The position numbers and the translations under genes were made by a program. Below, piece after piece: positions 40,300-61,234 of a stretch of DNA of 64,000 nt (the stretch's first letter is position 1; each line of letters opens with the position of its first letter). The stretch is from Pseudothermotoga hypogea DSM 11164 = NBRC 106472. Its GTDB lineage: Bacteria > Thermotogota > Thermotogae > Thermotogales > DSM-5069. The notes below the pieces were generated by a model. That model saw nothing but the letters and a program-made list of their open reading frames with translations. It was not told the DNA's origin and searched no databases. The DNA is taken from positions 1,364,001 through 1,428,000 of the forward strand of contig NZ_CP007141.1 of assembly GCF_000816145.1 (NCBI RefSeq), given 5' to 3'.

Positions 40300-42761
40300 T
40301 CCTTCACCGCCCCTCTCGTCAGTCCGCTCACGAGGTATCGTTGCATTGCCAAGAACAGTATCACCATGGGTAACATGCCGAGCAACGCGGCAGCAGTGAA
40401 CAAACCCCATTCCGTTTCGTACGGTCCCACGGCGAAGGATTGTAGACCGAGTGCGTAGGTGTAGTTTCGAACGTTCTGAAGCACGATCCTTGCAACCACG
40501 TACTCGTTGAAAGTACCTATGAAGGTCAGAAGGAAGACCACGACGAGTATGGGTCTTGCAAGTGGAAGAACGATCATGTAGAAACTCTGGAACTTGGTGG
40601 CGCCGTCGACTATCGCAGCCTCTTCGAGCGAGGCAGGTATCAGGTCGTAGAAGCCTTTGATCAAATAAACGTTGTAAGCGATGTTCGTCAGATAGGCCAA
40701 TGCGAGACCACCTATGGTGTCTATGCCGAGGAAGGGTACGAACTTTCCAAGGAAGTTGAGCAGGTTGTAGATCGCGATCATGAATATCACGCCGGGGAAC
40801 ATCTGGATCAAAAGAAAGCTCAGTATACCATACCTCCTGCCGACGAAACGCATCCTGCTGAACGGATACGCGGCCGTGGCGCAAACGAAGGTCGTGATGA
40901 GTGCGACGATCGTGGAAACGACTATCGAGTTGAGCACCCACCAGCCAAAATAGTGCTTCATCTTCTCCTTCCAGATCTGATCTATCCTGAAGAGCTGTTT
41001 GTCCACGTTGCGGAACAACTTCTGTGCTTCGGGAAAGAGGGAGAGTTTCATCAGAGTACCTGCTCGGCGCGAAACCACCGCGAGGTCCGCACGAACCTTG
41101 TTCACGAAGTCGAGCTTCACCAAATCGAGCAACCTTGTCAGATGCTCCGAGGTCACGAAGGTTCCACTGTGAGAGAGCGCTAACAGATCGTTGCAGATCT
41201 TTTCGAAGTCGACCATCACCTGCTCGAATTCCTTGACGGTCTGCTCGTAATTCTTCGCGTAGTTCTCGAAACGCGACGTGAAAGTCCTGTAATCCTCGAT
41301 CCATCTCAGGTTGTTGATGGCCTTTTGCACGCTCTCTTTCGTTCTGTCGTTTCGCTCGTAGGAATTCGCGAAGTTCCTCAGCCACGTGAGAAGAGCAGAG
41401 TAGCGTGTAAGATCCGTCCTGGACAAAGATTTGATAGCTTCAACGGTGGAAAGTCTGACTTTCAAATCGTTTTCGAAGAGGATGAGCTGCAGCCATGCCC
41501 TTTCCTCTGTGAGGCTGACCTCGAGCGATTCTTTCGTTCTCTGGAGTTTCACCGTTCTCTGCTTGATTTGCTGAAGATCAGATTCTTTCATCAAAATAGA
41601 GTTGTTGAGCTCTCGAAGTTTTGAAACTTCGTAGCTGTATCGTTCCAATAGCCTCCCCAGATCGTCGCATATCCTCTCGAGCCTCGGTCTGATCTCTTCG
41701 TAGGTCTTCACCATGTCGGCGTAAACTTTCAAGTTCTTTCGTTGCTGATCCACGTAAGTGAGCTCGAGGAGTTTTTCAGAAAGCGATTCTGTGGTCTTTC
41801 GAACTTCCAATAAGTCTTCGAAACCTTGTAGAGAGTTCGAAGCGTTTCTCAGTTGAGCAGCGACGCTTTGAAGACTCTGCAAGAACGCCGTATCGTCGAT
41901 GGGAAAGATGCTCTTGGCAGTCGTGCGTGCGAGCGAATCCTTCATTCTATTGAGCGCTTCGATGGCACCGATCAAGGAACGAAGCTCGGACAACAGATCA
42001 CCCTTCAGTAAAAGCTGCGCCTCCAAGATGGATCGTTCCAAAGGTTGCAGAGCTTTTCTCAGCGCTTCTATTTCTGAGCTGATCGAAGAAAGTTGAGTCG
42101 ATAGTGCTTCGAGATCCTTCAAAGACATTCCACCGAGCTCTTCGTACACGCCTCTCAAACGATCCAAGGCGAGCGTGTAAGACTGTTCGTCTTCGATTTT
42201 GAAGCCAACGATAGTCTCAACGTTGGATCTCAAAATCTTTTCCAGCTGGGAGTTGAATTTCTCTTTGCTCAACACTTCGTAAAGGATGAAAGTCAGCTCT
42301 TCTTCGTTGATCTTCAACTCGTTCAAAGTTTCGAACACACTCTTTTCGATTTGCTTCAGATCGTTCAAGGTCGACTGCTTCGCACGATCGGCGTTCGCCT
42401 CGAAGATCTTCACCAAAGCTTCGTAAGATTTCTTGGCAGCATCATTCCTGCTGTTGGATTCATTGAGATAGTTTCTCAACTTCTTGAGAAGTTCCGAGGC
42501 TTTCTCCTGGGCTCGTGACAAGGTGAGTTTATCGTAAGGGCTCACACGCGATATCAGCTTTTGAAGTTCTTTGACGAGCACCGGCACATTCTGTTCCTGA
42601 ACGATCAAATCTACATAGTTTTGAAGCGTGAGCCTGCTCGAAAACAGATCGGTCGAGAAGGCTGCCTCGTCCCTTCTCAGAGAGGTCGTCACCACCCAAA
42701 CGGTCGGAAAGAGAATGACGATGATCAGAAATATCAAGATCGCGTGCACGTGCAGTTTCAT
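40296..42761 (-). CDS. MalG-type sugar permease with giant coiled-coil insertion
   Basis: 821 residues; ordinary MalG is about 280. Transmembrane helix 1 (residues 6-27) is followed by about 560 residues of charged, Leu-rich coiled coil (for example LSRAQEKASELLKKLRNYL) facing outside, then the normal permease core with five helices and the EAA loop in PASLEEAAIVDGATKFQSF. It imports oligosaccharides, here most likely galacto-oligosaccharides released by the adjacent GH53 enzyme. Its start overlaps malF by 4 bases. I recall unusually long MalG proteins in Thermotoga maritima, but the role of the extension is unexplained. Confidence 0.92.
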   Translation of the reverse strand: MKLHVHAILIFLIIVILFPTVWVVTTSLRRDEAAFSTDLFSSRLTLQNYVDLIVQEQNVPVLVKELQKLISRVSPYDKLTLSRAQEKASELLKKLRNYLNESNSRNDAAKKSYEALVKIFEANADRAKQSTLNDLKQIEKSVFETLNELKINEEELTFILYEVLSKEKFNSQLEKILRSNVETIVGFKIEDEQSYTLALDRLRGVYEELGGMSLKDLEALSTQLSSISSEIEALRKALQPLERSILEAQLLLKGDLLSELRSLIGAIEALNRMKDSLARTTAKSIFPIDDTAFLQSLQSVAAQLRNASNSLQGFEDLLEVRKTTESLSEKLLELTYVDQQRKNLKVYADMVKTYEEIRPRLERICDDLGRLLERYSYEVSKLRELNNSILMKESDLQQIKQRTVKLQRTKESLEVSLTEERAWLQLILFENDLKVRLSTVEAIKSLSRTDLTRYSALLTWLRNFANSYERNDRTKESVQKAINNLRWIEDYRTFTSRFENYAKNYEQTVKEFEQVMVDFEKICNDLLALSHSGTFVTSEHLTRLLDLVKLDFVNKVRADLAVVSRRAGTLMKLSLFPEAQKLFRNVDKQLFRIDQIWKEKMKHYFGWWVLNSIVVSTIVALITTFVCATAAYPFSRMRFVGRRYGILSFLLIQMFPGVIFMIAIYNLLNFLGKFVPFLGIDTIGGLALAYLTNIAYNVYLIKGFYDLIPASLEEAAIVDGATKFQSFYMIVLPLARPILVVVFLLTFIGTFNEYVVARIVLQNVRNYTYALGLQSFAVGPYETEWGLFTAAALLGMLPMVILFLAMQRYLVSGLTRGAVKE

Positions 42762-47252: not shown

Positions 47253-47556
47253 CGTCCAGTTTTGTTCCTTCTTGTAGGTTCGAATAACTTTTCAAAGCAG
47301 CCTGTGAGGTTCGAGTCTGAAGCGCCTGATTCTTGATGTTCTCCATGAAGTTCTTCATCTTTTCCAGCCTCACCCTGTCGGCTTCAATTATGTTGTTGGC
47401 GAGTTCTTCAGGGATCTTGGAAAGCGTCTTGAGCAACAACTCGCGTTGTTCCAACAACATGTTCATGCGCTCGAAATCCTCACGCTCCAGCGCCCTGTCG
47501 AGTTCACTTTCGATTTGTATCAGTTGCTGTACCAGTTCTTCGTCATCAGTAGGCAT
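47242..47556 (-). CDS. FliT-like helical protein
   Basis: 104 residues, all helical: EELVQQLIQIESELDRALER, LLEQRELLLKTL, then a long helix with EADRVRLEKMKNFM and a C-terminal AALKSYSNL. The heptad pattern, the LLExRxxLL segment and the AxKxY ending resemble FliT/FlgN-type flagellar export chaperones. The genome does have flagella, but this gene is outside the flagellar operon and its start overlaps the end of the AcpS-FolK gene by 37 bases. Assignment is by pattern only; it could be any small coiled-coil protein. Confidence 0.5.
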   Translation of the reverse strand: MPTDDEELVQQLIQIESELDRALEREDFERMNMLLEQRELLLKTLSKIPEELANNIIEADRVRLEKMKNFMENIKNQALQTRTSQAALKSYSNLQEGTKLDERK

Positions 47557-48335
47557 TCTCCACCTTCTTTCAGGAAGTTTCTGAGTTTGCCCTTCAAAGG
47601 GTGTTCGACGTCAGCAATGTCGAGAAGAGGTCTGAGCACGAACTGTCTGTTCGTCAGGTCGTAGTGAGGTATCGTCAGATTCTCAGTCTCGAGGACAACG
47701 TTGCCGTACAGGACGATGTCCAAATCTATCGTTCTCGGTCCCCATTTCCTGTCACGAACTCTTCCCAGAAACTTTTCTATGTTCAGAAGATCTTCAAGAA
47801 GCTGAAAGGGCGTCAATTCTGTTTCGATCTCGACGACACAGTTGAGAAAATCGGGTTGATCCGCAAATCCGTAGGGTTTCGTCACATACACCGGAGAAGT
47901 TCTGAGCAATCTCATGCCAGAGCTTTCCATCAAGCGACACGCCCGCTGTATGTTCTTCAGCCTCTCACCCATGTTCGAGCCCAGCGCAACGTAAATGCCA
48001 CCTTCTCGTTTCTCGAGTAAGACCATCGCCATCGCGACTCTGTCGTGCGACACACTCACGTGGGCGAAGTTGAAACCTACGTCCCTGTGAAAGACGAGCA
48101 CAGGTTTTCCCAGTTCATTGTGCGTCAGTTCGACATCCTTGAAAGAAAAATCTCTCAAGCCTGTTCCCAGCGCCTTGAAGAACGCTTCTTTCACAGCAAA
48201 GCGCGATGCGAGAAACTGCTTTTTGTTGTGAATTCGTTGAAATTCTTGTAGCTCACGATCCGTCAAGATCCTCTTGGCGAGTCTTTCATCGACTCTTTCG
48301 ATGTCGACCACATCGACGCCGACTCCGATGATCAT
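47520..48335 (-). CDS. Fused holo-ACP synthase (AcpS) and HPPK (FolK)
   Basis: One uninterrupted 271-residue frame with two unrelated enzymes. Residues 1-110: AcpS, which moves phosphopantetheine from CoA to acyl carrier protein, with IIGVGVDVVDIERV, FLASRFAVKEAFFKALGTG and the FAHVSVSHDRVAMA ending. Residues 112-265: FolK, pyrophosphokinase of the folate pathway, with GIYVALGSNMGERLKNIQ, TSPVYVTKPYG, FLNCVVEIETEL and the signature RKWGPRTIDLDIVLYG. Both sets of catalytic motifs look complete. The ATG overlaps the stop of the OadA-type gene by 4 bases. Confidence 0.95.
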   Translation of the reverse strand: MIIGVGVDVVDIERVDERLAKRILTDRELQEFQRIHNKKQFLASRFAVKEAFFKALGTGLRDFSFKDVELTHNELGKPVLVFHRDVGFNFAHVSVSHDRVAMAMVLLEKREGGIYVALGSNMGERLKNIQRACRLMESSGMRLLRTSPVYVTKPYGFADQPDFLNCVVEIETELTPFQLLEDLLNIEKFLGRVRDRKWGPRTIDLDIVLYGNVVLETENLTIPHYDLTNRQFVLRPLLDIADVEHPLKGKLRNFLKEGGECLLMTKNWYSN

Positions 48336-49718: not shown

Positions 49719-50801
49719 TCACCTTCTCTTCTTGTCGAAGTGATCCAGCAGTTCTGACGATAATCTCACGCGCTCTTCGAAGCTATCGATGAGTGCAAAT
49801 TCTTCTTCCGAATGAAACCTTCCACCGCACAGTCCAAGCCCGTCCAACGTGGGTACACCGAGTGCTGTGAAGAAAGCACCATCAGCACCTCCACTGGAAT
49901 GTTCAAGCTCAAAACGTTTTCCTAATTTTTGGAATGCTTCTTCGAGCGCTTGCTTCATCTCTTCCATAAGAACCATCGCTGGTCTTCTCTCATTGAGACT
50001 GTAGTCGCAAGAGGTGCGTTCTATATGGTTGGTACGGGCTATCTCAGAGAGCTTTCGTTTGAATTCTTCCAGTTCCTCTGTGTTCGAAAACCTCACATCA
50101 CAGTAGATTCTGCAAAGATCGGGTGTTATGTTCGATTTCTCTCCACCGTTGATGATGGTTGGATTCACACTCAAACTTCCTATCTGGCCGTTGAGTGCGT
50201 ATATCTGACAAACCTTGTGTGATGCTTCGACGACGGCGTTGGCTCCCTCTTGAAGTCTCGACGCGTGTCCTTTTATACCTCTCACCTGAATGTCGAGCGA
50301 TGCGATACCTTTCCTCGAAGCAACTATCTCACCGTGAACTCCTCCTGGCTCAAAAGAGAGACAACATGAACTTTGTCTCGCGTACTTTTCGAAGGTCTCT
50401 CTACTCTCTTTTGAACCCAGTTCTTCATCGACGTTGAGGATCACGCACAGACCGTCCAAACCTTTTTTGATTGCTTCCTCGACCACGGCGAGAAGCACCA
50501 CTACTCCGCCCTTCATGTCGGCAACGCCTGGGCCTCTCGCAACGTTGTCTTCCAACTTGAACGGTCTTCGAACCGCTTCGCCTTCCTTGAACACCGTATC
50601 GAGATGTCCTATGAGCGTCAGATACGGTGCTTCACCCTTCAAAGCCACGTGTGCGGCTCTTTCTCTGTGGAGCTCAAAGCCGAGGTTTTCAAGAAAATCC
50701 GCTACAAATTGAGTCCTTTCGAGTTTCGTTGAACTGTCCAGATCGAAGCCCGTGTCTGTGTTGACGAGTGCTTCGAAAATTTCAAGCCATTTCTTATGCA
50801 T
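49719..50801 (-). CDS. M20-family metallopeptidase
   Basis: 360 residues of the ArgE/DapE/glutamate carboxypeptidase family. Metal ligands are in LTLIGHLDTVF, GPGVADMKGGVVVL and VILNVDEELGSKES; the dimerisation domain (about 170-285) interrupts the catalytic domain; the C-terminal ligand region is GLGLCGGRFHSEEEFA. It closely follows the carboxypeptidase G2-like branch that removes C-terminal glutamate, but substrate is uncertain. Between the LUD gene and the OadA-type gene on one strand. Confidence 0.9.
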   Translation of the reverse strand: MHKKWLEIFEALVNTDTGFDLDSSTKLERTQFVADFLENLGFELHRERAAHVALKGEAPYLTLIGHLDTVFKEGEAVRRPFKLEDNVARGPGVADMKGGVVVLLAVVEEAIKKGLDGLCVILNVDEELGSKESRETFEKYARQSSCCLSFEPGGVHGEIVASRKGIASLDIQVRGIKGHASRLQEGANAVVEASHKVCQIYALNGQIGSLSVNPTIINGGEKSNITPDLCRIYCDVRFSNTEELEEFKRKLSEIARTNHIERTSCDYSLNERRPAMVLMEEMKQALEEAFQKLGKRFELEHSSGGADGAFFTALGVPTLDGLGLCGGRFHSEEEFALIDSFEERVRLSSELLDHFDKKRR

Positions 50802-50810
50802 TTTGATCCC

Positions 50811-51443
50811 TCACAGCCCAAATTCCTTGATCGTTAAAATGATCTTTATCCTGCCTGGCTGGTTTCTCGAATCGTTGATGACGTGATAGTGCCTGCAAAT
50901 CCTCTGGGGTGAGTCACAATCCTGGCACATGCCAGTCACCGCACACGGTGTTGACAGAGATAATCTCTTCGCGTTCATGGGCGCAATGTATCTGATCCTT
51001 TCTCTTGCAGCATCCAAATCCTCAACGATTTTGTTCGCACTAACGATCAGTATCACGTTCTTCGGACCGTAGGTTACCGCCGCAACCCTGTTACCCCAAC
51101 CGTCCATGAACACCAGTTCTCCATCCATCGTGATAGCGTTGGCACTGCACAGATAGAAATCTGCTTTGAAGGCTTCAAGCTCAACGGCCCTCCTGTCAGA
51201 TGCTTTGTACCTGTCCAGAAAGACGTACTTGCCGGACCTGAGAAGATCCAAAACACCCGTTTCTGAAAGTGTTAAAGAACCTCCCGAACTCACGACCGAG
51301 TTGGCTGGTATGAGTTTCTCCACCAACTCGAGTACTTGTTTTTCGTCCTCGGCGATGTACACTTCAAAGCCCTTTCTCTCAAGTATAGGCTTGACGGCTT
51401 TGCAGAGAGATTCGTACTTGAACCTGTAGAGTTCAGCTCGCAC
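50811..51443 (-). CDS. LUD-domain protein (LutC/DUF162 family)
   Basis: About 210 residues with the LUD core: EVYIAEDEKQVLELVEKLIP, the conserved NSVVSSGGSLTLSETGVL, YLCSANAITMDGELVFMDG and GPKNVILIVSANKIV, and a Cys-rich tail (GMCQDCDSPQRICRH) as in stand-alone LUD proteins of anaerobes. Some relatives take part in lactate oxidation; the role of this subgroup is unknown. The GTG at 51443 follows GGGAGGTGCTGA and a -10 TATAAT (51463-51468, minus strand) lies just before it, which excludes the upstream ATG at 51491. Divergent from the catabolic cluster, so possibly co-regulated. Confidence 0.85.
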   Translation of the reverse strand: MRAELYRFKYESLCKAVKPILERKGFEVYIAEDEKQVLELVEKLIPANSVVSSGGSLTLSETGVLDLLRSGKYVFLDRYKASDRRAVELEAFKADFYLCSANAITMDGELVFMDGWGNRVAAVTYGPKNVILIVSANKIVEDLDAARERIRYIAPMNAKRLSLSTPCAVTGMCQDCDSPQRICRHYHVINDSRNQPGRIKIILTIKEFGL

Positions 51444-51715
51444 CTCAGCACCTCCCAGAAGAATTATAGATTCTGTCAGTCCAAAACGCATGCGAACGTA
51501 CAGACCGATCGAAAAAATTGTGAATCATTTAACACGAACGAGATTTTGCCTAACTCGGACGAACAAAGCCATTTGACAAGTCTTGCAGGAAGAATCACCT
51601 CGTTCGGCGCCGACAAATGATTGCAATACTTTCTGGTGGTTTCGGGTTGTTTTTCGTAGAATCCGGTTGAATATGCTTAAATATCATAAAAGATCTCGTG
51701 GGCGCTTCAAATAAT

Positions 51716-51769
51716 TTGTTGTATCTCGTACAACAAAAATTTGTATGCCATATCAACGGGTTGTATAAT
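51716..51769 (+). promoter_or_regulatory. Operator palindrome and promoter of the catabolic cluster
   Basis: TTGTTGTA and TACAACAA (51716-51736) are perfect 8-base inverted arms around TCTCG. Five bases downstream is a near-consensus sigma-70 promoter: TTGTAT (51741-51746), 17 bases, TATAAT (51764-51769). The start of transcription would fall at the ribosome site AGGAGGGG, so the leader is only about ten bases. The palindrome is the natural binding site for the YheO-like regulator encoded next; the divergent LUD gene shares the region. Confidence 0.65.
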
Positions 51770-51784
51770 AAGGAGGGGCGTAGG

Positions 51785-52456
51785 ATGAAGAGATTGCATC
51801 CGATTCTCAAGGCCTTCGTTCCGATGGTCAAGGCGCTCGCTGAAACTTTAGGGCCAGACTGTGAAGTGGTCCTGCACGATGTTTCCGATCCGGAGCGTTC
51901 TGTTGTTGCCATAGAGAATGGCCACGTGACCGGCAGAACCGTCGGCTCTCCACTCACGGACTTTGGCCTCTATTTGCTGAGATCGCCCAGGTTCAAGAAC
52001 GTCGACTACGTTGCGAACTACATGACGAGGACCAACGATGGAAGAAAACTTCGATCCACCACGGTGTTCATACGGAACGAAGCTGGTGAGGTTATAGGTT
52101 TTCTCTGTATCAACTACGATACGACCAAAGCGTTCGCGGTGAAAGAGTTCGTCGAACAGTATCTGAAGTTCCAAAACCTCGAGGAGATCGCTGGTACCAA
52201 AGAAGAGAGGTTCGTGAGCAAGGTTGAGGAACTGCTCCTCGAAGCGATGCAGGAGATCAAGAGTCTGACGGGAAAACCACTCAGATTCGCCAGCAAGGAA
52301 GAGAAGCTGGCGGTCATCAAGAAGCTCGACGAGAAAGGTTTCTTCTTGTTGAAGGGTGCCGTGGAAATGCTTGCGAAGGAGCTTGGAAATTCGAAGTTCA
52401 CAGTTTACGCTTATCTGAGAGAAGCGAGGAAGAAGGGCGACTCAATAATGATTTGA
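51785..52456 (+). CDS. YheO-like PAS/HTH transcriptional regulator
   Basis: 223 residues. The N-terminal YheO-like PAS domain (about 5-120) has LGPDCEVVLHDVSDPERSVV, GRTVGSPLTDFGL and STTVFIRNEAGEVIGFLCIN; the C-terminal DauR/YheO helix-turn-helix (about 170-223) ends FLLKGAVEMLAKELGNSKFTVYAYLREAR in pattern. Characterised relatives such as DauR respond to D-amino-acid catabolism, fitting a cluster with an epimerase. First gene of the cluster, directly behind a palindrome, so probably autoregulated. ATG at 51785 follows AGGAGGGG. Confidence 0.88.
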   Translation: MKRLHPILKAFVPMVKALAETLGPDCEVVLHDVSDPERSVVAIENGHVTGRTVGSPLTDFGLYLLRSPRFKNVDYVANYMTRTNDGRKLRSTTVFIRNEAGEVIGFLCINYDTTKAFAVKEFVEQYLKFQNLEEIAGTKEERFVSKVEELLLEAMQEIKSLTGKPLRFASKEEKLAVIKKLDEKGFFLLKGAVEMLAKELGNSKFTVYAYLREARKKGDSIMI

Positions 52457-52469
52457 GGAGGTGTTTGCG

Positions 52470-52856
52470 GTGAAAATCGTTCAAACCGATGGAGCGCCCA
52501 AGGCCATAGGGCCTTATTCTCAAGCTGTGGAAGCGAACGGTTTCGTGTTCGTGTCCGGTCAGATACCGCTCGATCCTCAGACGGGTCAGCTCGTCGATGG
52601 AGACATCAAGAAACAAACCAAGAGGGTGTTCGAGAACATCAAAGCGATCTTGGCTGCTGCAGGGTGTGATCTGAGCAACGTTGTCAAGGTCACAGTCTTC
52701 ACGAACGATATTTCCAACTTCACCTCGATCAACGAGGTCTACTCTGAGTACTTCAACGCTCACAAACCCGCCAGATCTTTCGTGGAAGTTTCGGCGTTGC
52801 CGAGGAACGCACAGGTGGAGATCGAGGTCATCGCAGTCAAGGAGGCAAAATCATGA
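52470..52856 (+). CDS. ridA: RidA-family enamine/imine deaminase
   Basis: 128 residues of the YjgF/YER057c/UK114 family: GAPKAIGPYSQAVEANGF, FVSGQIPLDPQTGQLV and the conserved Arg in KPARSFVEVSALPRNAQVEIE. RidA hydrolyses reactive enamines/imines released by PLP enzymes, which agrees with the PLP enzyme two genes downstream. GTG at 52470 is preferred over GTG at 52461 because of GGAGG spacing. Overlaps the next gene by ATGA. Confidence 0.95.
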   Translation: MKIVQTDGAPKAIGPYSQAVEANGFVFVSGQIPLDPQTGQLVDGDIKKQTKRVFENIKAILAAAGCDLSNVVKVTVFTNDISNFTSINEVYSEYFNAHKPARSFVEVSALPRNAQVEIEVIAVKEAKS

Positions 52857-53290
52857 AAGAACCGTACTCCACCGGTATGCTGAAGTTTGATCCCTATGCG
52901 AAGAAACAACCTGTGATCGGCAGGGTGGTGGTGGTTCTTAGGGGCAGATTGGACAACAGGAGCCTCAGTTTGATAGAACCTCATTCGAGGGCTCTGAGAA
53001 TCGGAGAGATCCACGAAATTTTAATGACCGACGAGAAAGAAGCGATCCCGGGAAAAACGGTGAACCGTGTGGCATACATCGCGTTCGTGGAGATCGTTCA
53101 GGCTGGCGTCATCGTCTCGAACGACATCGTCAGACTGGGCGATGGCAGACAGATCGGAAGGCTGGTCGGTTTCGATGAGACTCACATGCCGAACCACCAG
53201 AACATCGTGATTTACTCCGACCAGTTGATCAGCGGTGAAGAACTCGGCTTGGAAATTGGCGAGATGATCGTTTTTGAAAAGGAGGGATGA
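52853..53290 (+). CDS. Conserved protein of unknown function in the aminomutase cluster
   Basis: 145 residues, no Cys, no membrane segment, mostly beta: PVIGRVVVVLRGRLDN, LMTDEKEAIPGKTVNRVAYIA, a Gly-rich turn VRLGDGRQIGRLVGF, and a His pair in DETHMPNHQNIVIY. The fold is not recognised; it may be a DUF6917-type protein, which I cannot check. The ATG overlaps the ridA stop and the PLP-enzyme gene starts 3 bases after its own, so translation is tightly coupled and it probably acts on or with the PLP enzyme. Confidence 0.8.
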   Translation: MKEPYSTGMLKFDPYAKKQPVIGRVVVVLRGRLDNRSLSLIEPHSRALRIGEIHEILMTDEKEAIPGKTVNRVAYIAFVEIVQAGVIVSNDIVRLGDGRQIGRLVGFDETHMPNHQNIVIYSDQLISGEELGLEIGEMIVFEKEG

Positions 53291-53292
53291 GC

Positions 53293-54747
53293 ATGTTCAA
53301 GTACAGATACCATCTGTACAGGCATCTGAAACAGTCTTTGCCGAAGATTCTGGAAGAAGCGAGGAAAGCCGCAGATGAGATCGGTATCCCCAAGGAATGG
53401 AGAGGTAAGTTCGGCCTCACCGGTGCGATATCGGGTTGTCACGGACTCATCAGTAAAGAAGTGGACGAAGCGATCAGTGCGGTTGCACGCGAGGTCATTC
53501 CCAACAGGGTCTTCGCGGACGAGATCAGGGACATAGTGAAGGATCACTACGGTGACGAGTACGATGCTTTGCTCGTGAGCACGTGTGAGGCGGCTCTCTG
53601 GCTGAGCTTCGACGTGTTGGTCTCACCACCGTTCACTGGCAGGGGTGACAAGTACAGAACCAGATACATCGTGCCTTATGAGAGACATTTGCACCATCAC
53701 GGTGGTTACGGTAGACCCTTCCCACCTCAGTACAAGGACATCTTCGCAGATAGAGGTTGCACCGCAGGGGAGCTGGGATTCTATGGCAAGAGACTTGAAA
53801 ATGTTGATGTCGTCATCGTTCCCATGGTTGGGGCGCGCTACACGGTGCACGGAATAAAGTACCATCCGACGATCCTCTTGAGCGGTGTGAAAGCTGAGGA
53901 GACGGCGAAACGAATAAGACAGGTGGCGGAACAGAACATCGAGATGCTTGCAGGTTTCTCTTCTCTCGGATACGACACGTTTGGCTATGGCTACGGTGAG
54001 AAAGATAAAGACGGTGCGCCGATACTGCAGAAGAGGCTCGGTGAACTCGCAGAAGAGTTCAACGTACCGTACATCGTCGACAACGCGTGGGGTGTTCCGT
54101 TCATTGGGACGGATCCGAGGAAGATTGGTGCGTGGGTCATGACCTACAGCATGGACAAGGCCGCGGGCGCACCAACCTGTGGATTGATCATCGGAAGAGA
54201 AGACATCATGGTCCCCATAAGGAGAGCAATGGGCACGCACGGTGACAGGTACGGAACTTGGTCGAGCTACGGCAAGGCGGCCTACGTGACCTTCGATCCA
54301 GGAAAAGAGGCGCTCGCCGGCGCGATCGCCGCTTTGAAAGCTCTGAAAGAGAAAGCAGACAAGTTCAAGAGGAACGTCGATAGGCTTTACGAGATCACCG
54401 TCGAGGAGTTCTCCAATCTTGATTCACGCATCAGACATATCTTCAGGATCTCCAAGAGCTACAACTCGGGCGCCGTCGAGGTCAACTACGACGATTGCTG
54501 GGAAAAAGGTGTGCCCTTCCCGATCTTTCCAATTGAGGACATGTACGCGGGTACAAACATACTCCAGATCGGTACCGATGCGATGGGTATCATCCAGACG
54601 ATCGCGTACGATGGAAACATATTCATCTCGCTCGGTCTTGGTACGACAGACGAAAACGGTGACATCATCGAAGACAAAGCAAGACTGGCTATCAGAGGTC
54701 TTGTGAAGTTGATCGAGATCGTTGCCAAGTATTCGAACGTTCTGTGA
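53293..54747 (+). CDS. SelA-like fold type I PLP enzyme, reaction unknown
   Basis: 484 residues, related to selenocysteine synthase and D-glucosaminate-6-phosphate ammonia-lyase. Seen are a cofactor-phosphate loop (STCEAALWLSF, about 96-106), a PLP-ring Asp in VPYIVDNAWGVPF (263), and the Schiff-base Lys in TYSMDKAAGAPTCGLIIG (289). It differs from SelA by a His-rich insertion (YERHLHHHGGYGRPFPPQY) and lacks tRNA-binding features, so a small-molecule lyase, aminotransferase or thiolysis-like role is more likely. ATG at 53293 lies 7 bases after GGAGG; the ATG at 53287 is too close. Core enzyme of the cluster. Confidence 0.82.
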   Translation: MFKYRYHLYRHLKQSLPKILEEARKAADEIGIPKEWRGKFGLTGAISGCHGLISKEVDEAISAVAREVIPNRVFADEIRDIVKDHYGDEYDALLVSTCEAALWLSFDVLVSPPFTGRGDKYRTRYIVPYERHLHHHGGYGRPFPPQYKDIFADRGCTAGELGFYGKRLENVDVVIVPMVGARYTVHGIKYHPTILLSGVKAEETAKRIRQVAEQNIEMLAGFSSLGYDTFGYGYGEKDKDGAPILQKRLGELAEEFNVPYIVDNAWGVPFIGTDPRKIGAWVMTYSMDKAAGAPTCGLIIGREDIMVPIRRAMGTHGDRYGTWSSYGKAAYVTFDPGKEALAGAIAALKALKEKADKFKRNVDRLYEITVEEFSNLDSRIRHIFRISKSYNSGAVEVNYDDCWEKGVPFPIFPIEDMYAGTNILQIGTDAMGIIQTIAYDGNIFISLGLGTTDENGDIIEDKARLAIRGLVKLIEIVAKYSNVL

Positions 54748-54759
54748 TGGGGTGGTGGT

Positions 54760-56052
54760 ATGGCGAAGGTGCCAAGGGTGGTTGTCGTTGGAGGAGGTTG
54801 GGGTGGTTGTGCGGCCGCCGCGGCCGCACGTAAAGCTGGAGCCGAGGTCGTTTTGATAGAGAGAGCGGACATGCTGCTCGGAACCGGCCTCGTCGGTGGC
54901 ATATTCAGAAACAACGGTCGGTTCACGGCGGCAGAAGAAATGTTGGAGATGGGTGCGGACATATTCGCCGTGATGGACAGATGCGCCATCCACACGAACG
55001 TGGAGTTTCCCGGACACAAGCACGCAAGCTTGTACAGCGTTTACAAGATCGAACCCGCCGTTCGAGAATACCTCACGGGTCTCGGCGTTCAGATTATGAC
55101 CAACGCGCGTGTTATAGACGTCGCCAAGGAGAAAGACAAGATCGTGTGTGTCGTTGTTGAGAAGCATGAACCCGTGCGTGGGGACGTGTTCGTCGACGCG
55201 ACCGGTACATCGGCCGTGCCGGCGAACTGCACGAAGTACGGCAACGGTTGTGCGATGTGCATCTTGAGGTGCCACAGTTTCGGCCCCAGGGTGAGCCTTA
55301 CGACGAGGGTCGGCGTTGAAGAGTGGATCGGAAAGAAGCCGGATGGTAGCCTGGGTGCCATGAGTGGTTCTTGCAAACTCTGCAAAGACTCGATCGATCC
55401 GAGTATAGTGAGAGAACTCGAGGAGAAAGGTTGTGCACTCGTTCCTGTGCCCGAACATGTAAGAGAAGAAGAGAAGTTGTTAAGCATGAAGGCGTGTCAG
55501 CAGTACGCACTACCGGAATTCATCGAAAATTTGGTTCTGCTCGACACGGGCCCGGTGAAGCTGATGACCCCGTTCTTCCCACTCGAGCAACTCAGAAAGA
55601 TTCCGGGTATGGAGAGGGCTCGTTATGAAGATCCCATCGCCGGTGGCAAGGGCAACTCGATGAGATACTTCGGCTTCGCAAATTGCACGCCCGAGCTTCA
55701 AGCGATCGGACCGGTGGACAACCTCTTCTGTGCGGGTGAGAAGGCAGGAGCCATGGTGGGACACACCGAAGCGATCGTCACGGGTAGTTTGGCTGGACAC
55801 AACGCAGTGAGAAAGGCGATCGGTGAGAAGCTGCTCAGATATCCAGATGAACTCGCCGTGGGAGACTTTGTGAACCACGTTATCGAAGAAATGAAGAAAG
55901 AGGAAGGCCGTCAGTACAAGTACACATTCTCAGGCTCGATCTATTTCAAGCGGATGGTCCAGAAGAATCTGTACACCACGAACGTTGAAGAGATCAAGAA
56001 GAGGGTACACAATGCCAATTTGAAGGACATCTTTAACACCAAACTGGTGTGA
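54760..56052 (+). CDS. FAD-dependent oxidoreductase with cysteine motifs
   Basis: 430 residues. N-terminal dinucleotide fold VVVGGGWGGCAAAAAARKAG and VLIERADMLLGTGLVGG, FVDATGTSAVPA mid-way and a C-terminal FAD motif (NLFCAGEKAGAMVGHTEA). It belongs to the broad GidA/TrmFO/fumarate-reductase-like group often labelled FAD-dependent oxidoreductase. Two Cys clusters, NGCAMCILRCHSFGP and GSCKLCKDS, are unusual and might hold a metal or Fe-S site. Within the pathway it could oxidise the amino or alcohol carbon of the rearranged product. Twelve bases after the PLP-enzyme gene. Confidence 0.85.
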   Translation: MAKVPRVVVVGGGWGGCAAAAAARKAGAEVVLIERADMLLGTGLVGGIFRNNGRFTAAEEMLEMGADIFAVMDRCAIHTNVEFPGHKHASLYSVYKIEPAVREYLTGLGVQIMTNARVIDVAKEKDKIVCVVVEKHEPVRGDVFVDATGTSAVPANCTKYGNGCAMCILRCHSFGPRVSLTTRVGVEEWIGKKPDGSLGAMSGSCKLCKDSIDPSIVRELEEKGCALVPVPEHVREEEKLLSMKACQQYALPEFIENLVLLDTGPVKLMTPFFPLEQLRKIPGMERARYEDPIAGGKGNSMRYFGFANCTPELQAIGPVDNLFCAGEKAGAMVGHTEAIVTGSLAGHNAVRKAIGEKLLRYPDELAVGDFVNHVIEEMKKEEGRQYKYTFSGSIYFKRMVQKNLYTTNVEEIKKRVHNANLKDIFNTKLV

Positions 56053-56067: not shown

Positions 56068-57441
56068 GTGGTGGAGTTGACGTTGGCCCACTGGTTGTAT
56101 CTGGCTTTCATGATCGCAGTCATCGTGGCAATGTTTCTGCGAAAGGACACACCACTCATCTGTTTGCTTGGTTCATTGCTCATCGGTTGGGCGGTGACCA
56201 AATCGTTCATTGGGGCCCTTCAGTCCGTATTCAACGCCATCGTCGTCGCTGGCATCGAATTGTTCGGCATCGTGGTCGTCATCTCATTGATGGTGGCTCT
56301 CTCGAAACAGATGGAGAAGAGTGGGGCTGCCGCCGTGCTGATAAGGACTCTGGGTAAACCCATCAAGGGTCCCAGGTCTGCGTTCTGGTTCGTCGGCATC
56401 ATCACGGCGATACTCGCACTGTTCATTTGGCCCACGCCCTCTGTTGCGTTGATTGGTAGCTTGTTGGTTCTTGTGGCTGTCAGCGCGGGTCTTTCACCGG
56501 TGGGTGCAGGTGTCGCGATCGCCATGTTCGCCTACGGTGTGTCTCTCACGACGGATTTCGTCATTCAGGGTGCGCCCACGCTCACAGCGAAGGCCGCGGG
56601 GATAAGTGTGGGAGAAGTCATGAGCGCAATGGTGCCACTCATCATCGCCTACGCCGTTGTGACGATACCGCTCGCTTACTTTTGGACGATGAAGGCGAAC
56701 AAGAACTACGATCCTCGCAAGGACGTTGAACTGTTCGGTGAGAGCGTCATGAAGGCCAAGAGCGAAGAGTTCAGCACCTTCGCCAAAGCGGAAGCCGCAA
56801 TAGTCAGTCTCGCCTTCCTGATCAACATAGTTCTGATGCTCGCGCTGAAGTTGCGCGGCGGCGATGCTACGGCGTTGCTCGGTGGAACGGCTGCTGTGCT
56901 CTTGTTCGTGTTTACGCTACTGCAGTACAAAACCGAAGGCTTGGAAACCGGCGTCGGCTTTCTCAGAGATGGTTTCATGTTCGGTGTCAAGATCTTCGCA
57001 CCAGTCTTCATCATCGCGGCAATGTTCTACATGGGTAGCGGTGCGGCGAAACAGATCTTTGGTGACGCTGGAAGGCCCTTGCTCTTCGATCTGGCGAACG
57101 CCCTCGCTGACAGAGTGCCTCTGAACAAGTTCGCAGTCGCACCCATGCAGGCCGTCGTAGGAGCAATAACAGGCTTGGACGGTTCTGGTTTCTCTGGCCT
57201 TCCGCTGATGGGTACACTCGCAGGTGGTCTGGCGCCCATCGCCAATGTGAAGACACCGTTCTTGGCGGCTCTCGGTCAGCTCACCGCGGTGAACTGCGGT
57301 GGTGGAACGATCGTTCCTTGGGCACTCATAGCCGTCGCAGCCGTTTGTAAGACGAAGCCCGAAGAGATCGCGAGGAGGAACTTCTTGCCCGTCATTCTGG
57401 GCTACGTTGCTGCAACGATAGTCGCGATGTTCCTCATGTGA
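56068..57441 (+). CDS. Permease of the ion-transporter (GntP/CitMHS-like) type
   Basis: 457 residues with about 11-12 membrane helices, two-half architecture, and re-entrant-type segments (WPTPSVALIGSLLVLVAVSA, TGLDGSGFSGLPLMGTL, NCGGGTIVPWALIAVAAVC). It most resembles Na+- or H+-coupled carboxylate or amino-acid permeases of the IT superfamily; no exact family is claimed. As part of the cluster it probably imports the substrate. Start is GTG at 56068 after GAGGGGGTG. Followed by a terminator, so the genes downstream may form a second transcript or depend on read-through. Confidence 0.85.
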   Translation: MVELTLAHWLYLAFMIAVIVAMFLRKDTPLICLLGSLLIGWAVTKSFIGALQSVFNAIVVAGIELFGIVVVISLMVALSKQMEKSGAAAVLIRTLGKPIKGPRSAFWFVGIITAILALFIWPTPSVALIGSLLVLVAVSAGLSPVGAGVAIAMFAYGVSLTTDFVIQGAPTLTAKAAGISVGEVMSAMVPLIIAYAVVTIPLAYFWTMKANKNYDPRKDVELFGESVMKAKSEEFSTFAKAEAAIVSLAFLINIVLMLALKLRGGDATALLGGTAAVLLFVFTLLQYKTEGLETGVGFLRDGFMFGVKIFAPVFIIAAMFYMGSGAAKQIFGDAGRPLLFDLANALADRVPLNKFAVAPMQAVVGAITGLDGSGFSGLPLMGTLAGGLAPIANVKTPFLAALGQLTAVNCGGGTIVPWALIAVAAVCKTKPEEIARRNFLPVILGYVAATIVAMFLM

Positions 57442-57446
57442 AGAAG

Positions 57447-57473
57447 GGGGCGCCTCGAGCGCCCCTTTTCTTT
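57447..57473 (+). terminator. Terminator inside the catabolic cluster
   Basis: GGGGCGC, loop CTCGA, GCGCCCC, then TTTTCTTT. It lies between the permease and the DapF-like gene, whose ribosome site begins just after it, so the cluster may be split into upper and lower parts with different expression. Confidence 0.8.
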
Positions 57474-57489
57474 GGGAGGTTTTTTAACT

Positions 57490-58326
57490 GTGAAGATCAA
57501 ATTTTTCAAAATGAACGGAGCGGGAAACGATTTCATCGTGATCGACAACAGAGAGAACGCGCTCAAAGATTTCGACATAAGCCACTTCGTCAGGATGGTC
57601 TGTCGACGTGGCAAATCGATAGGTGCCGATGGACTCATGTTGCTCGAGCGTTCAGATTCCGCTGATTTCAAAATGAGATACTTCAACAGCGATGGTTCAG
57701 AAGGTGAAATGTGCGGTAATGGAGCACGGTGCATCGCGAGGTTCGCAAATTTGATGAATGTTGCGAAAGAGCACATGAGATTCGAAACGATCGCTGGTAT
57801 CCACGAAGCCGTGATCGTGGGCGAAGAGGTCCAGATAATGTTTCCAGATCTCAAGGTGAACGACTTCAAACTCTTGCAGAGACACGATTTTGGCTTTGGG
57901 CCTATCGAGTACCACTTCGGCACAGTTGGGGTACCACACGTCGTTATCTTCAGAGGAGACGTCGAGTCGATGGAAGATGAGCTTTTGCTGAACTGGGGAA
58001 GGAAGATCAGGTACGCTTTGGATGTTTTTCCAAGAGGAACGAATGTGAACTTCGTCAAAGTTGTGGGTCCGTCTCACATAATTGTCAGAACTTACGAACG
58101 GGGTGTGGAGAACGAGACGCTCGCCTGTGGGACTGGCTCGATCGCCTCGAGCATCGTTTCGTTCCTGATCCATGCTGTGGAACCACCAGTGACTGTGAAG
58201 GTGAGAGGTGGAGAGTTGAAGGTCGGGTTTGAGAGATGCGCCGATGAGTTCAAGAACGTCTATCTCCAAGGCGATGCGCGCGTTGTTGCTGAAGGTTACA
58301 TCCTACCCGATGCGTGGAAAGAATGA
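57490..58326 (+). CDS. DapF-like cofactor-independent amino-acid epimerase
   Basis: 278 residues with the two symmetrical DapF halves. Catalytic cysteines are Cys75 in GSEGEMCGNGARC and Cys213 in NETLACGTGS; MNGAGNDFIVID and ERGVENET are also standard. The usual GNPH motif reads GVPHVVIF here, a change also met in some true DapF proteins, so it is not decisive. It may be the housekeeping diaminopimelate epimerase, but its place directly before the aminomutase genes suggests a racemase supplying the D-isomer, as Orr does for D-ornithine aminomutase. GTG at 57490 follows GGGAGGT. Confidence 0.88.
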   Translation: MKIKFFKMNGAGNDFIVIDNRENALKDFDISHFVRMVCRRGKSIGADGLMLLERSDSADFKMRYFNSDGSEGEMCGNGARCIARFANLMNVAKEHMRFETIAGIHEAVIVGEEVQIMFPDLKVNDFKLLQRHDFGFGPIEYHFGTVGVPHVVIFRGDVESMEDELLLNWGRKIRYALDVFPRGTNVNFVKVVGPSHIIVRTYERGVENETLACGTGSIASSIVSFLIHAVEPPVTVKVRGGELKVGFERCADEFKNVYLQGDARVVAEGYILPDAWKE

Positions 58327-58347: not shown

Positions 58348-58572
58348 ATGATAGAAAGAATTGTGGACGCCATAGATATCGAAACGACTTTGCTCTCTAA
58401 GGACGAGGAAGACGCGAAGAACACGGCCATTCAGTATTTGAGGTCTCTCGGTTTCAAAGATGTCGACGTCGTGTTCGTCGAGCACACCGGTTTCGCCTCT
58501 CGGATTCGTCTGCGTGCCTACGTGTTCAGGCCCGGTGACAAGTACGCCTGGATCTTTGGAGGCGATGCATGA
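58348..58572 (+). CDS. Stand-alone aminomutase dimerisation-domain protein
   Basis: 74 residues. DEEDAKNTAIQYLRSLGFKD, VDVVFVEHTG and IRLRAYVFRPG follow, strand for strand, the small domain that precedes the B12 domain in KamE (beta subunit of lysine 5,6-aminomutase) and in the middle of OraE. There it sets up the dimer and positions the B12 domain. Here it ends in a stop that overlaps the start of the next gene (ATGATGA), so the domain has been split off. ATG at 58348 follows GCGAGGTG; a GTG at 58339 is too close. Identified by recalled family sequence, not by search. Confidence 0.75.
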   Translation: MIERIVDAIDIETTLLSKDEEDAKNTAIQYLRSLGFKDVDVVFVEHTGFASRIRLRAYVFRPGDKYAWIFGGDA

Positions 58573-60350
58573 TGAAGTTCGTACTGTTTCCACTCGATCC
58601 TGTTCACGACGTTGCACTCAAGATGTTGAACAGAGAACTGTTGAAGAGAGGGCATCAGACCGTACTTTTGCCACCGGACACCAAGATGGAAGAGGTCGTC
58701 GAGATTTGTCAGAGAGAGATACCCGACTTCATCATGGTGAGCAGGACCGTGGGTTATGGTGCTGCAGAATTGCTCGCCAGGTTCATAGACGTGCTGGACG
58801 CCGCAGGGCTCAGAAAGAAATGCAAGGTGGTGGTAGGTGGCAAGGCGATCACGAAGAAACTTGCTGCGGAATTGGGTTACGATGCGGGATTCGGTGAGAG
58901 AACGAGCTGGGAAGAAGTGATCGCATACGTCGAAGGAGGAAAGTTCGAGGGAGAGAAGGTCACAATCAGGAAGACCAAGCGCGACATAACCTGTGGTTAC
59001 ACCTACGAAGTTCGCGATGGAACTTTCAAAGAACTGCTCGATAAGATAACGGATCAAATACTCGATTGGGCGAAGGACAGAACGAGTCCTGGGATCGAGA
59101 GAGCGAAGATCAAGGAAAAAATGCTCGAAGGTGAACACTTGCTTGAGGAATATTTGAGGTTGTGCGACGAAGTCGTAGTTTCATACTTCAGAAAGAACGT
59201 TCTTCCAAAAAAGGTGAGACTCATAACCGAAGAAGAAAGAAAGAAGTTCGAACGGCTCGTACGTGAGATCAACTTCGACGGTAAGATCCTTCGTCACGGT
59301 CTCGATAAACCTCTCGTCTTCGTTCAATACGGAACGGGTTGTCCCTTCATGGACGCGATGCACATAAAGGTGAGCGAGGCGTGGGGTGCGGACGGGGTGT
59401 TACACTTCGATCCATCTTGGGGTGCGAGGTGCGAAGGACTGCTGGAAGGTTCCTTAGCACACGAAGAGGATGGATCGATAATAACGCTCGAAAACCTCAA
59501 GTTGATCAAATCTGCACTCAGCGATTCAACGCTCTGGTGTGTCAGAGCTCACAGAGGCTTGAACACACCTGAGATTGTCTTGCTGGCTGCACATGCCGGT
59601 GCAGACTTGACGAAGATAAACATGGTCTACGGTTCACTGAACGGTGGTACAGATCCAGAAAGACTCACCGTGGACGGTGTGTACGCGTTACAGCTCTCGG
59701 CCAAGTACAAACTTCCCTACGATATACCCACGAACGAGGAACTCGGTGGGGTGCCTGCACACAAAGCGTTCGCGGGCATGCTCGTCGTGGCGCACCTTGG
59801 TGTGAAGCTCGGTGCGAGGCCCATTCTGAAACCTTTGTTCTGCTACTCACCAGACGTGATGATCAACGACTACATGAAAGACAACTACGTCGACTACAAC
59901 GTTGCGAAGATCTTGGCACTCAGGCGCATCATGGACGCCCCAATCTGGCCCGGTGAACCCATCGGTTTCATGACCCACACGGAAGACAGGGTTCAATCCG
60001 CCATGACGACGGCGCTGCACGCCGCACTCGCGAGCTCACTGGGGCTGGATGCGATAACGATCGCTTCGACCGACGAAGCCTACGCACGTGGTGCGATCAG
60101 TGTGACTGCACGCATCGACACACTGAGGGCGATCGCTGAGGCGTTCAGATTCTTCGGTCACGCGAAGATAGAACCAACGAAGAAGGCAGAGGAGTATGCG
60201 GACAAGATCTTGAACGGTATCTACGAGACTCTCAAGAAAGTGGCGGAAAGGCAAGATTTCGTAGCCGCGCTGTACGAAGGTTTGTTCGGAACACGTGAAG
60301 AGGGTGCGAATCCTGGCAGGGCTGGGAGAGGTACGGTGAGAAAGTGCTGA
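58569..60350 (+). CDS. Permuted B12/PLP aminomutase of the KamDE/OraSE family
   Basis: 593 residues. 1-125: B12-binding domain ending VVVGGKAITKKL then LGYDAGFG, very close to KamE (GGPRINNEI, LGYDAGFG). 155-240: helical segment with DRTSPGIERAKI, like OraS. 248-555: TIM barrel with MHIKVSEAWGADGVL and GLLEGSL, like KamD/OraE. In known enzymes the barrel comes first and the B12 domain last. The B12 motif DxHxxG reads DPVHDVA here, with His13 the possible cobalt ligand, and the PLP lysine of KamE/OraE (11 residues after the His) is Leu24; Lys18 or Lys26 are candidates. Substrate unknown. ATG follows GGAGG at 58557. Confidence 0.85.
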   Translation: MMKFVLFPLDPVHDVALKMLNRELLKRGHQTVLLPPDTKMEEVVEICQREIPDFIMVSRTVGYGAAELLARFIDVLDAAGLRKKCKVVVGGKAITKKLAAELGYDAGFGERTSWEEVIAYVEGGKFEGEKVTIRKTKRDITCGYTYEVRDGTFKELLDKITDQILDWAKDRTSPGIERAKIKEKMLEGEHLLEEYLRLCDEVVVSYFRKNVLPKKVRLITEEERKKFERLVREINFDGKILRHGLDKPLVFVQYGTGCPFMDAMHIKVSEAWGADGVLHFDPSWGARCEGLLEGSLAHEEDGSIITLENLKLIKSALSDSTLWCVRAHRGLNTPEIVLLAAHAGADLTKINMVYGSLNGGTDPERLTVDGVYALQLSAKYKLPYDIPTNEELGGVPAHKAFAGMLVVAHLGVKLGARPILKPLFCYSPDVMINDYMKDNYVDYNVAKILALRRIMDAPIWPGEPIGFMTHTEDRVQSAMTTALHAALASSLGLDAITIASTDEAYARGAISVTARIDTLRAIAEAFRFFGHAKIEPTKKAEEYADKILNGIYETLKKVAERQDFVAALYEGLFGTREEGANPGRAGRGTVRKC

Positions 60351-61234
60351 GCCTTGGTGTCTTGGGAACGGCGAAGAACACAGGTAAGACGACCACGCTC
60401 AACGCATTGCTGAAATGTTTGAGTGAAAAATCGATAGCCATCACAAGCATAGGCTTCGATGGAGAGGACCTCGACCACATCACGGGCCTTCCGAAGCCCA
60501 AGGTCTTGGTAGAGGAAGGAAACTTCGTTGTGACGAGCGAGGAGGCCGCAAAACACTCGACCGCAAGGTTGCATCTGCTCAGAAGATTCGACATCAAAAC
60601 GGCTTTGGGATCGATCTGTCTGTATAGAGTCAGAGGATCCGGCACGGTGGTTTTGGTTGGTCCGCACAGCAGCGAAGATCTGCTCGCGATCAAAGAAGTT
60701 CTGGAAAAAGACATGGTCGAAGTTTTCCTGATCGATGGTGCGATAAACAGGATCGTTCCGTTCCAACACTCAGACTTCGTGATACTCGCCGTTGGAGCTT
60801 CGAGGTCCACGAACCTCGACTTTCTGCTCTCAGAAACGAGAGTCATCGTGAAGACGTTGAGACTACCGATTGACAAACAAGGTCGAAAGATCGTCGAGGG
60901 ATTGGTCAGCCTCGAAAAGCTTTCTTCCTTACGCGGTGAGCATGTCTTGGTGGAATCCCCCATGCACCTTCTTCTCACCGATGACCTCACCAAACTCGAA
61001 CAACTCTTGAACGAGACGAACGTCGCGGTGATGAGAAAACCGGAGCTCCTCTGTGTCACGGTGAATCCATGTTACCCGGAAAGAAGGATGGAAGGTTACA
61101 CATTGGCACGGATCGATCTGAGTGAGCTCTCGAAGGCCATAGAGCGAGAACTCGATGTTCCTTGTTTGAACGTCACAGAGGAAGAAGAAAGGCTGTGTAA
61201 AATCGTTGAGGAGAAGATCGACAAACGGAGTTGA
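60344..61234 (+). CDS. P-loop NTPase, possible aminomutase reactivase
   Basis: 296 residues. Walker A is LGTAKNTGKTTTLNAL near the N-terminus; SIGFDGEDLDHITGL resembles a switch region, and VFLIDGAINRI a Walker B. The fold is of the SIMIBI type (dethiobiotin synthetase or MeaB-like). B12 enzymes commonly have an adjacent P-loop or ASKHA reactivase (MeaB, KamB/KamC, GlmL), and this gene overlaps the aminomutase stop, so I infer such a role. A GTG at 60344 preceded by GAGAGG is the start. The family itself is not one I can name. Confidence 0.7.
   Translation: MLSLGVLGTAKNTGKTTTLNALLKCLSEKSIAITSIGFDGEDLDHITGLPKPKVLVEEGNFVVTSEEAAKHSTARLHLLRRFDIKTALGSICLYRVRGSGTVVLVGPHSSEDLLAIKEVLEKDMVEVFLIDGAINRIVPFQHSDFVILAVGASRSTNLDFLLSETRVIVKTLRLPIDKQGRKIVEGLVSLEKLSSLRGEHVLVESPMHLLLTDDLTKLEQLLNETNVAVMRKPELLCVTVNPCYPERRMEGYTLARIDLSELSKAIERELDVPCLNVTEEEERLCKIVEEKIDKRS

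Follow-up and report, generated by a model that had tools for sequence, protein, structure and literature searches.

The 64,000-nucleotide stretch of DNA analysed here (the window) carries two overlapping genes that encode the modules of the lysine 5,6- and ornithine 4,5-aminomutases (LAM/OAM) in a rotated and recut order. The common succession of S helices, barrel, dimerisation domain and B12 domain gives way to a stand-alone dimerisation domain in the first gene, followed by B12 domain, S helices and TIM barrel in the second. The architecture is real and apparently undescribed in the open-access literature: the initial sequence-only reading knew of no described member of this form, and a search of the open-access part of PMC found no published description of such a rotated and recut pair. 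On balance we favour the view that the pair forms a third lineage of the LAM/OAM superfamily, far diverged from the other two, and acts as an AdoCbl-dependent radical isomerase or lyase, probably without PLP and on a substrate of the amino-acid type. The more specific picture has about an even chance of being correct, namely an AdoCbl radical enzyme that is built on a LAM/OAM scaffold but does without PLP, catalyses a reaction new to the superfamily with its rotated and recut modules, and serves a catabolic operon for D-amino acids or a diaminopimelate-like compound.

In the LAM/OAM enzymes, attachment of PLP to a B12-domain lysine is believed to keep the enzyme in a safe, open state until the substrate arrives. 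A natural relative that lacks the PLP lysine and carries its B12 domain at the opposite side of the fold would make this locking model directly testable. The pair could also connect aminomutases that depend on PLP with B12 mutases that do not, for instance glutamate mutase. It further marks a conserved thermotogotal pathway, so far undescribed and probably one of amino-acid catabolism.

Architecture of the gene pair

The first gene (58348..58572, + strand) encodes a protein of 74 amino acids and is coupled by an ATGA stop/start overlap to the second (58572..60350, +), which encodes a large subunit of 592 amino acids, or of 593 if an alternative ATG at 58569 is used. The overlap of a 74-residue gene with a larger one, noticed from the letters alone, is thus present as described. 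The stop of the large-subunit gene (60350) is overlapped in turn by the gene of a KamB-type reactivase starting at 60344. The host, a heat-loving bacterium, has a complete thermotogotal genome of 2.17 Mb that also encodes an ordinary KamD/KamE. Nine of the 103 Thermotogota genomes contain the pair, all from one family and three genera, and the named close relatives are Pseudothermotoga. Split and module order are identical in the nine genomes, and 4-bp overlaps occur in most of the extended neighbourhoods. Eight full-length orthologs of the large protein share 76-93% identity with that of the window, and the small proteins of the relatives 63-96%. Purifying selection is indicated by dN/dS values of 0.04-0.07 in the large gene, taken from comparisons with unsaturated synonymous sites, and of 0.11-0.18 in the small one. 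An assembly or frame error was rejected given this selection and the same architecture in nine genomes. A scan of genome contigs, seeded with just two short conserved peptides and so expected to miss distant relatives, gave matches only in Pseudothermotoga and one Thermotogota MAG; viral contigs gave none, and plasmids only a canonical KamE-like fragment and sub-significant barrel matches.

Each of the four modules is homologous to its LAM/OAM counterpart. The 74-residue protein, with a beta-alpha-beta-beta fold, had been likened to the OAM dimerisation domain only, which profile, hhalign and fold comparisons bear out. Pfam OAM_dimer matches the window protein with E=0.003 and all nine orthologs (9/9), weakly and below cut-off, and hhalign of the small family against the N-terminal dimer domain of KamE gives E=1.8e-6. 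A fold search was needed because phmmer and hmmsearch of the small protein against the PDB returned no relevant match. With its model (pLDDT 79.5), the six best PDB matches in Foldseek are dimer domains of KamE and OraE (probability 1.00, TM about 0.63), at E-values of just 0.02-0.06.

The large subunit begins with a B12-binding Rossmann domain (residues 1-122; 58572..58937, +) that matches PF02310 (1.5e-9), the KamE profile NF052385 (1.2e-13) and, by hhalign, KamE (E=1.7e-16), and contains at residues 101-108 the LGYDAGFG motif that had been regarded as diagnostic. The following helices (residues 147-208; 59010..59195, +), with a TSPGIER motif, resemble OraS and the N-terminus of KamD: OAM_alpha matches all nine orthologs below cut-off (E=0.005 at residues 149-178 of the window protein) and hhalign aligns them with OraS at E=1.6e-5, in line with the earlier comparison of DRTSPGIERAKI (residues 169-180) with the NTTPSIER region of OraS. 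The KamD-like TIM barrel (residues 240-530; 59289..60161, +) was recognised by protein search (residues 196-591 against the KamD of a single relative's genome, E=4.9e-9), by hhalign against KamD (E=9.6e-7) and by Foldseek, in which the top three matches of the large protein are KamD chains (7e-8 to 3e-7, best 6.9e-8). Pfam Lys-AminoMut_A matches the window protein, alone among the orthologs, with E=0.015 (14 bits versus a cut-off of 25). The superposition on the KamD chains is poor because the barrel model is weak; the AlphaFold model of the large protein has a mean pLDDT of 60, often below 50 in the barrel, which is too weak for pocket analysis.

Domain orders were compared on 20 canonical loci from the same phylum. 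In these, KamD consists of S-like helices and barrel and KamE of dimer and B12 domains, while OraS is separate and OraE reads barrel-dimer-B12. The orders initially given for OraSE and KamDE are right on these loci, with the addition that KamD starts with S-like helices. The pair departs from the common order S-barrel-dimer-B12 by a cyclic rotation to dimer | B12-S-barrel, and its gene boundary falls between dimer and B12 domain, not between barrel and dimer. A fission plus a permutation, as had been proposed, is supported by the profile matches, by the structure search and by the orthologous loci in nine genomes.

Relation to known B12 enzymes

In a barrel tree, KamD, OraE and the family of the pair form three separate clades, with the last on its own long branch. 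Barrels of KamD and OraE share 26% identity and align by hhalign at 2e-25, whereas the pair's family is 19-21% identical to either and aligns with KamD at 9e-7. We therefore regard it as a third branch that lies further out; as the tree has no root, PLP may have been lost here or gained by the others.

The best match in sequence and fold for both barrel and B12 domain is KamDE (PDB 1XRS, 8T0V, 9Q1A), which shares with the pair the same four modules, a KamB reactivase, the adenosyl-ribose glutamate and the stacking tyrosine. It differs in its gene division (S-barrel in KamD, dimer-B12 in KamE), in a barrel only about 21% identical, in having the PLP-Lys144 loop, which the pair lacks, and in PLP contacts of which most are missing from the pair. 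OraSE (PDB 3KOW) has the nearest counterpart, in OraS, of the S-helix motif TSPxIER and a dimer domain matching in fold, but its order is S | barrel-dimer-B12, its PLP-Lys629 is absent from the pair, and the barrels are about 19% identical. Glutamate mutase GlmES (PDB 1I9C, 6H9E), which uses AdoCbl without PLP and combines a B12 with a barrel module, resembles the pair in the Glu330 region and an RH..TP motif; it has, however, no significant whole-barrel match to the pair, no dimer or S module, and GlmL rather than KamB as reactivase. Glutamate mutase as the parent family was rejected, the match to eight GlmE sequences being weak and local; the Met_asp_mut_E barrel profile hits one ortholog with E=0.026-0.06 (12-13.5 bits versus a cut-off of 26.6). 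The fused isobutyryl-CoA mutase IcmF also carries its B12 domain ahead of the barrel in a single chain, with a P-loop GTPase fused between the two and a barrel for CoA substrates, and appears in the Foldseek search of the large protein with low-quality matches only. Assignment to another B12 family would have spoken against the original placement, and none fits better than LAM/OAM.

Cofactor sites and proposed chemistry

The residues that contact PLP in LAM and OAM have been listed, among them Arg184, Ser189 and Arg268 as phosphate binders (PMC3958899). In KamE and OraE the PLP lysine (K144beta/K629) lies at His+11 in 20/20 sequences and is followed by a conserved loop; the B12 domain of the pair has Leu/Phe at this position, and in the alignment the loop of approximately 12 residues is missing. 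Where 20/20 KamD and OraE sequences have the R, Q and S of the phosphate-binding motif R-[ST]-x-[AG]-Q-S, the pair has DPSWGA (Asp280-Ala285; 59409..59426, +), a replacement invariant in 9/9 orthologs. Arg184, Ser189 and Arg268 correspond to Asp280, Ala285 and Gly358, each likewise invariant (9/9), and Asn299 to Glu389, at a contact where the alignment shows no Asn for OraE either. The assignments of Tyr236 to Ala326 and Ser238 to Arg328 follow an ungapped hand reading anchored on G-L-x-x-P-E, where MAFFT opens a gap. The sole named barrel contact of PLP that is kept is the stacking tyrosine (Y353; 9/9).

These losses were judged on sequence alignment at about 20% identity, since the low-confidence barrel model offers no pocket to inspect. 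The substitutes are invariant, and the PLP site therefore looks rebuilt rather than decaying. As the tether and pocket that hold PLP in known members appear to be gone, the enzyme is probably PLP-independent.

The residues expected for AdoCbl chemistry are retained. Glu502 (60075..60077, +) is the counterpart of OAM Glu338, which contacts the adenosyl ribose (PMC4413051); this position is Glu in 29/29 sequences of KamD, OraE and the pair's family and aligns with the Glu330 region of glutamate mutase. The predicted axial ligand of cobalt, His12 of H-D-V-A (58605..58607, +), is invariant in the nine orthologs; phmmer matches it to the HD in 1y80, a corrinoid protein, while the MAFFT alignment of B12 domains places the axial histidine three columns off. 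The initial label of a B12/PLP aminomutase is thus supported in its B12 half, with axial histidine, adenosyl-ribose glutamate and a KamB-type reactivase, but not in its PLP half, where the lysine, its loop and most contacts are missing: the pair belongs to the PLP-dependent aminomutases by descent but not by their defining cofactor site.

There is a fair probability that the pair works like an AdoCbl radical mutase. AdoCbl would be bound base-off/His-on via His12, and the B12 domain, hinged to the S helices by a linker of roughly 25 residues (low model confidence at residues 127-137), would close over the barrel. Glu502 may assist Co-C homolysis, and the resulting 5'-deoxyadenosyl radical would start the isomerisation or elimination of an amino-acid-type substrate, with the KamB-like ATPase restoring inactivated enzyme.

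Could the pair still be a PLP- and AdoCbl-dependent aminomutase, with PLP in the same barrel, stacked on Tyr353, and anchored to another lysine (such as Lys348 or Lys420 in the barrel, or Lys17 in the B12 domain) and to a new set of arginines (Arg286, Arg325, Arg328)? The nearest relatives are all PLP enzymes, the stacking tyrosine is kept throughout (9/9) and several lysines and arginines are invariant. We nevertheless consider this unlikely, since Lys144/629 and the loop are absent, the positions of Arg184, Ser189, Arg268 and Asn299 are Asp, Ala, Gly and Glu, that of Ser238 is probably Arg, and the known contacts to the phosphate and the pyridine nitrogen are gone.

A specific form of the favoured PLP-free enzyme is a carbon-skeleton mutase similar to glutamate mutase, in which arginines would hold a carboxylate substrate. 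The segment VRAHRGLNTPE, which replaces QVNYASGLCMPE of KamD, recalls the IRHGTPD of glutamate mutase, and there is a weak local match around Glu330 (E=0.003-0.06). Given that this match is weak and local, that the arginines correspond at the motif level only, and that the whole-barrel alignment prefers KamD (9e-7 versus 0.003), so close a likeness seems rather improbable.

Loss of the PLP site and the canonical KamDE in the same genome would also suit a non-catalytic pseudo-enzyme that regulates or escorts KamDE, but this is very improbable for a protein whose replaced residues are invariant rather than drifting, which keeps the adenosyl-ribose glutamate and axial histidine, and whose gene is coupled to a reactivase gene in a catabolic-looking operon with a transporter and enzymes. 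Least plausible of all is a barrel partner of the corrinoid methyltransferase type with methylcobalamin instead of AdoCbl on the B12 domain: the first half of that domain, which has HDxA and lacks an insert, also resembles corrinoid proteins of the MtgC/MtbC type, but its second half and the barrel match KamE/KamD best, a KamB reactivase adjoins, and neither a methyltransferase barrel nor a corrinoid-reducing activase was found by Pfam/NCBIfam in the barrel or among the neighbouring operon genes.

The surrounding operon

The pair lies in a ten-gene neighbourhood on the + strand that is kept in the relatives whose whole stretch was read and that probably serves amino-acid catabolism. In a related group of genomes (g4) there is extra sequence between the DapF and transporter genes, and in another genome (G006) DapF lies elsewhere in the operon. 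At the head stands a YheO-like PAS/HTH regulator (51698..52456; PF08348 3.1e-45, PF13309 5.5e-20), followed by a RidA family enamine/imine hydrolase (52461..52856; TIGR00004 1.9e-56), whose presence points to the formation of an enamine or imine along the pathway, and a DUF6917 protein (52853..53290; PF21891 3.6e-47). Within Thermotogota, DUF6917 is confined to the genomes with the gene pair and one 71%-complete genome. Elsewhere, it is found in Thermomicrobium, where a TPP-enzyme gene adjoins it and one for proline racemase lies close by, and fused to a DXS-like transketolase on a Streptomyces plasmid (L072:9989-10456; L073:7926-10253), hinting that DUF6917 partners TPP/PLP enzymes.

The fourth gene encodes a 486-aa PLP enzyme of fold-type-I-like character (53287..54747; weakly SelA/DgaE-like, selA_rel E=2.9e-5). 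A full-length homolog with 44% identity is encoded on a Variovorax plasmid (L071:10004-11893), where it neighbours RidA and an ABC transporter of the sulfonate type, and the pairing of this enzyme with RidA therefore recurs far beyond Thermotogota. An FAD-dependent oxidoreductase (GidA/TrmFO-like, 54760..56052; GIDA 1.6e-31) and a membrane transporter (56068..57441; weakly CitMHS-like and kept in the operon) precede the DapF epimerase (57472..58326; TIGR00652, 238 bits). None of the nine pair-bearing genomes, including that of the window, has a second DapF, and this one may also contribute to lysine biosynthesis; a genome without the operon (G009) has a different, shorter DapF elsewhere. The window's genome additionally retains lysA and dapB of the DAP pathway. 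As a lead only, the substrate may resemble diaminopimelate or be another D/L-amino acid.

Downstream of the pair, the KamB-type P-loop reactivase (60344..61234; NF052386 E=2.8e-56, slightly short of the curated cut-off) adjoins it in the seven extended neighbourhoods. The window's genome contains a second KamB-like gene (G000:C1:64116-64766), which probably serves the canonical KamDE at about 1313.4-1315.7 kb, alongside which there is no KamB. No B12 riboswitch was detected upstream at Rfam gathering thresholds.

Genes for an M20 peptidase and a LUD-domain protein (49719-51491, - strand) diverge from the operon, and the LUD gene is kept beside it in the relatives whose stretch was read. Two further proteins of the window were noted. 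One open reading frame (47520-48335, -) fuses a holo-ACP synthase domain (AcpS) to HPPK (FolK) (Pfam ACPS 1.3e-19, HPPK 2.9e-41), and a sugar-type ABC permease of 821 aa (40296-42761, -), with BPD_transp_1 matching only at residues 643-813, has a large, probably coiled-coil insertion ahead of its transport domain.
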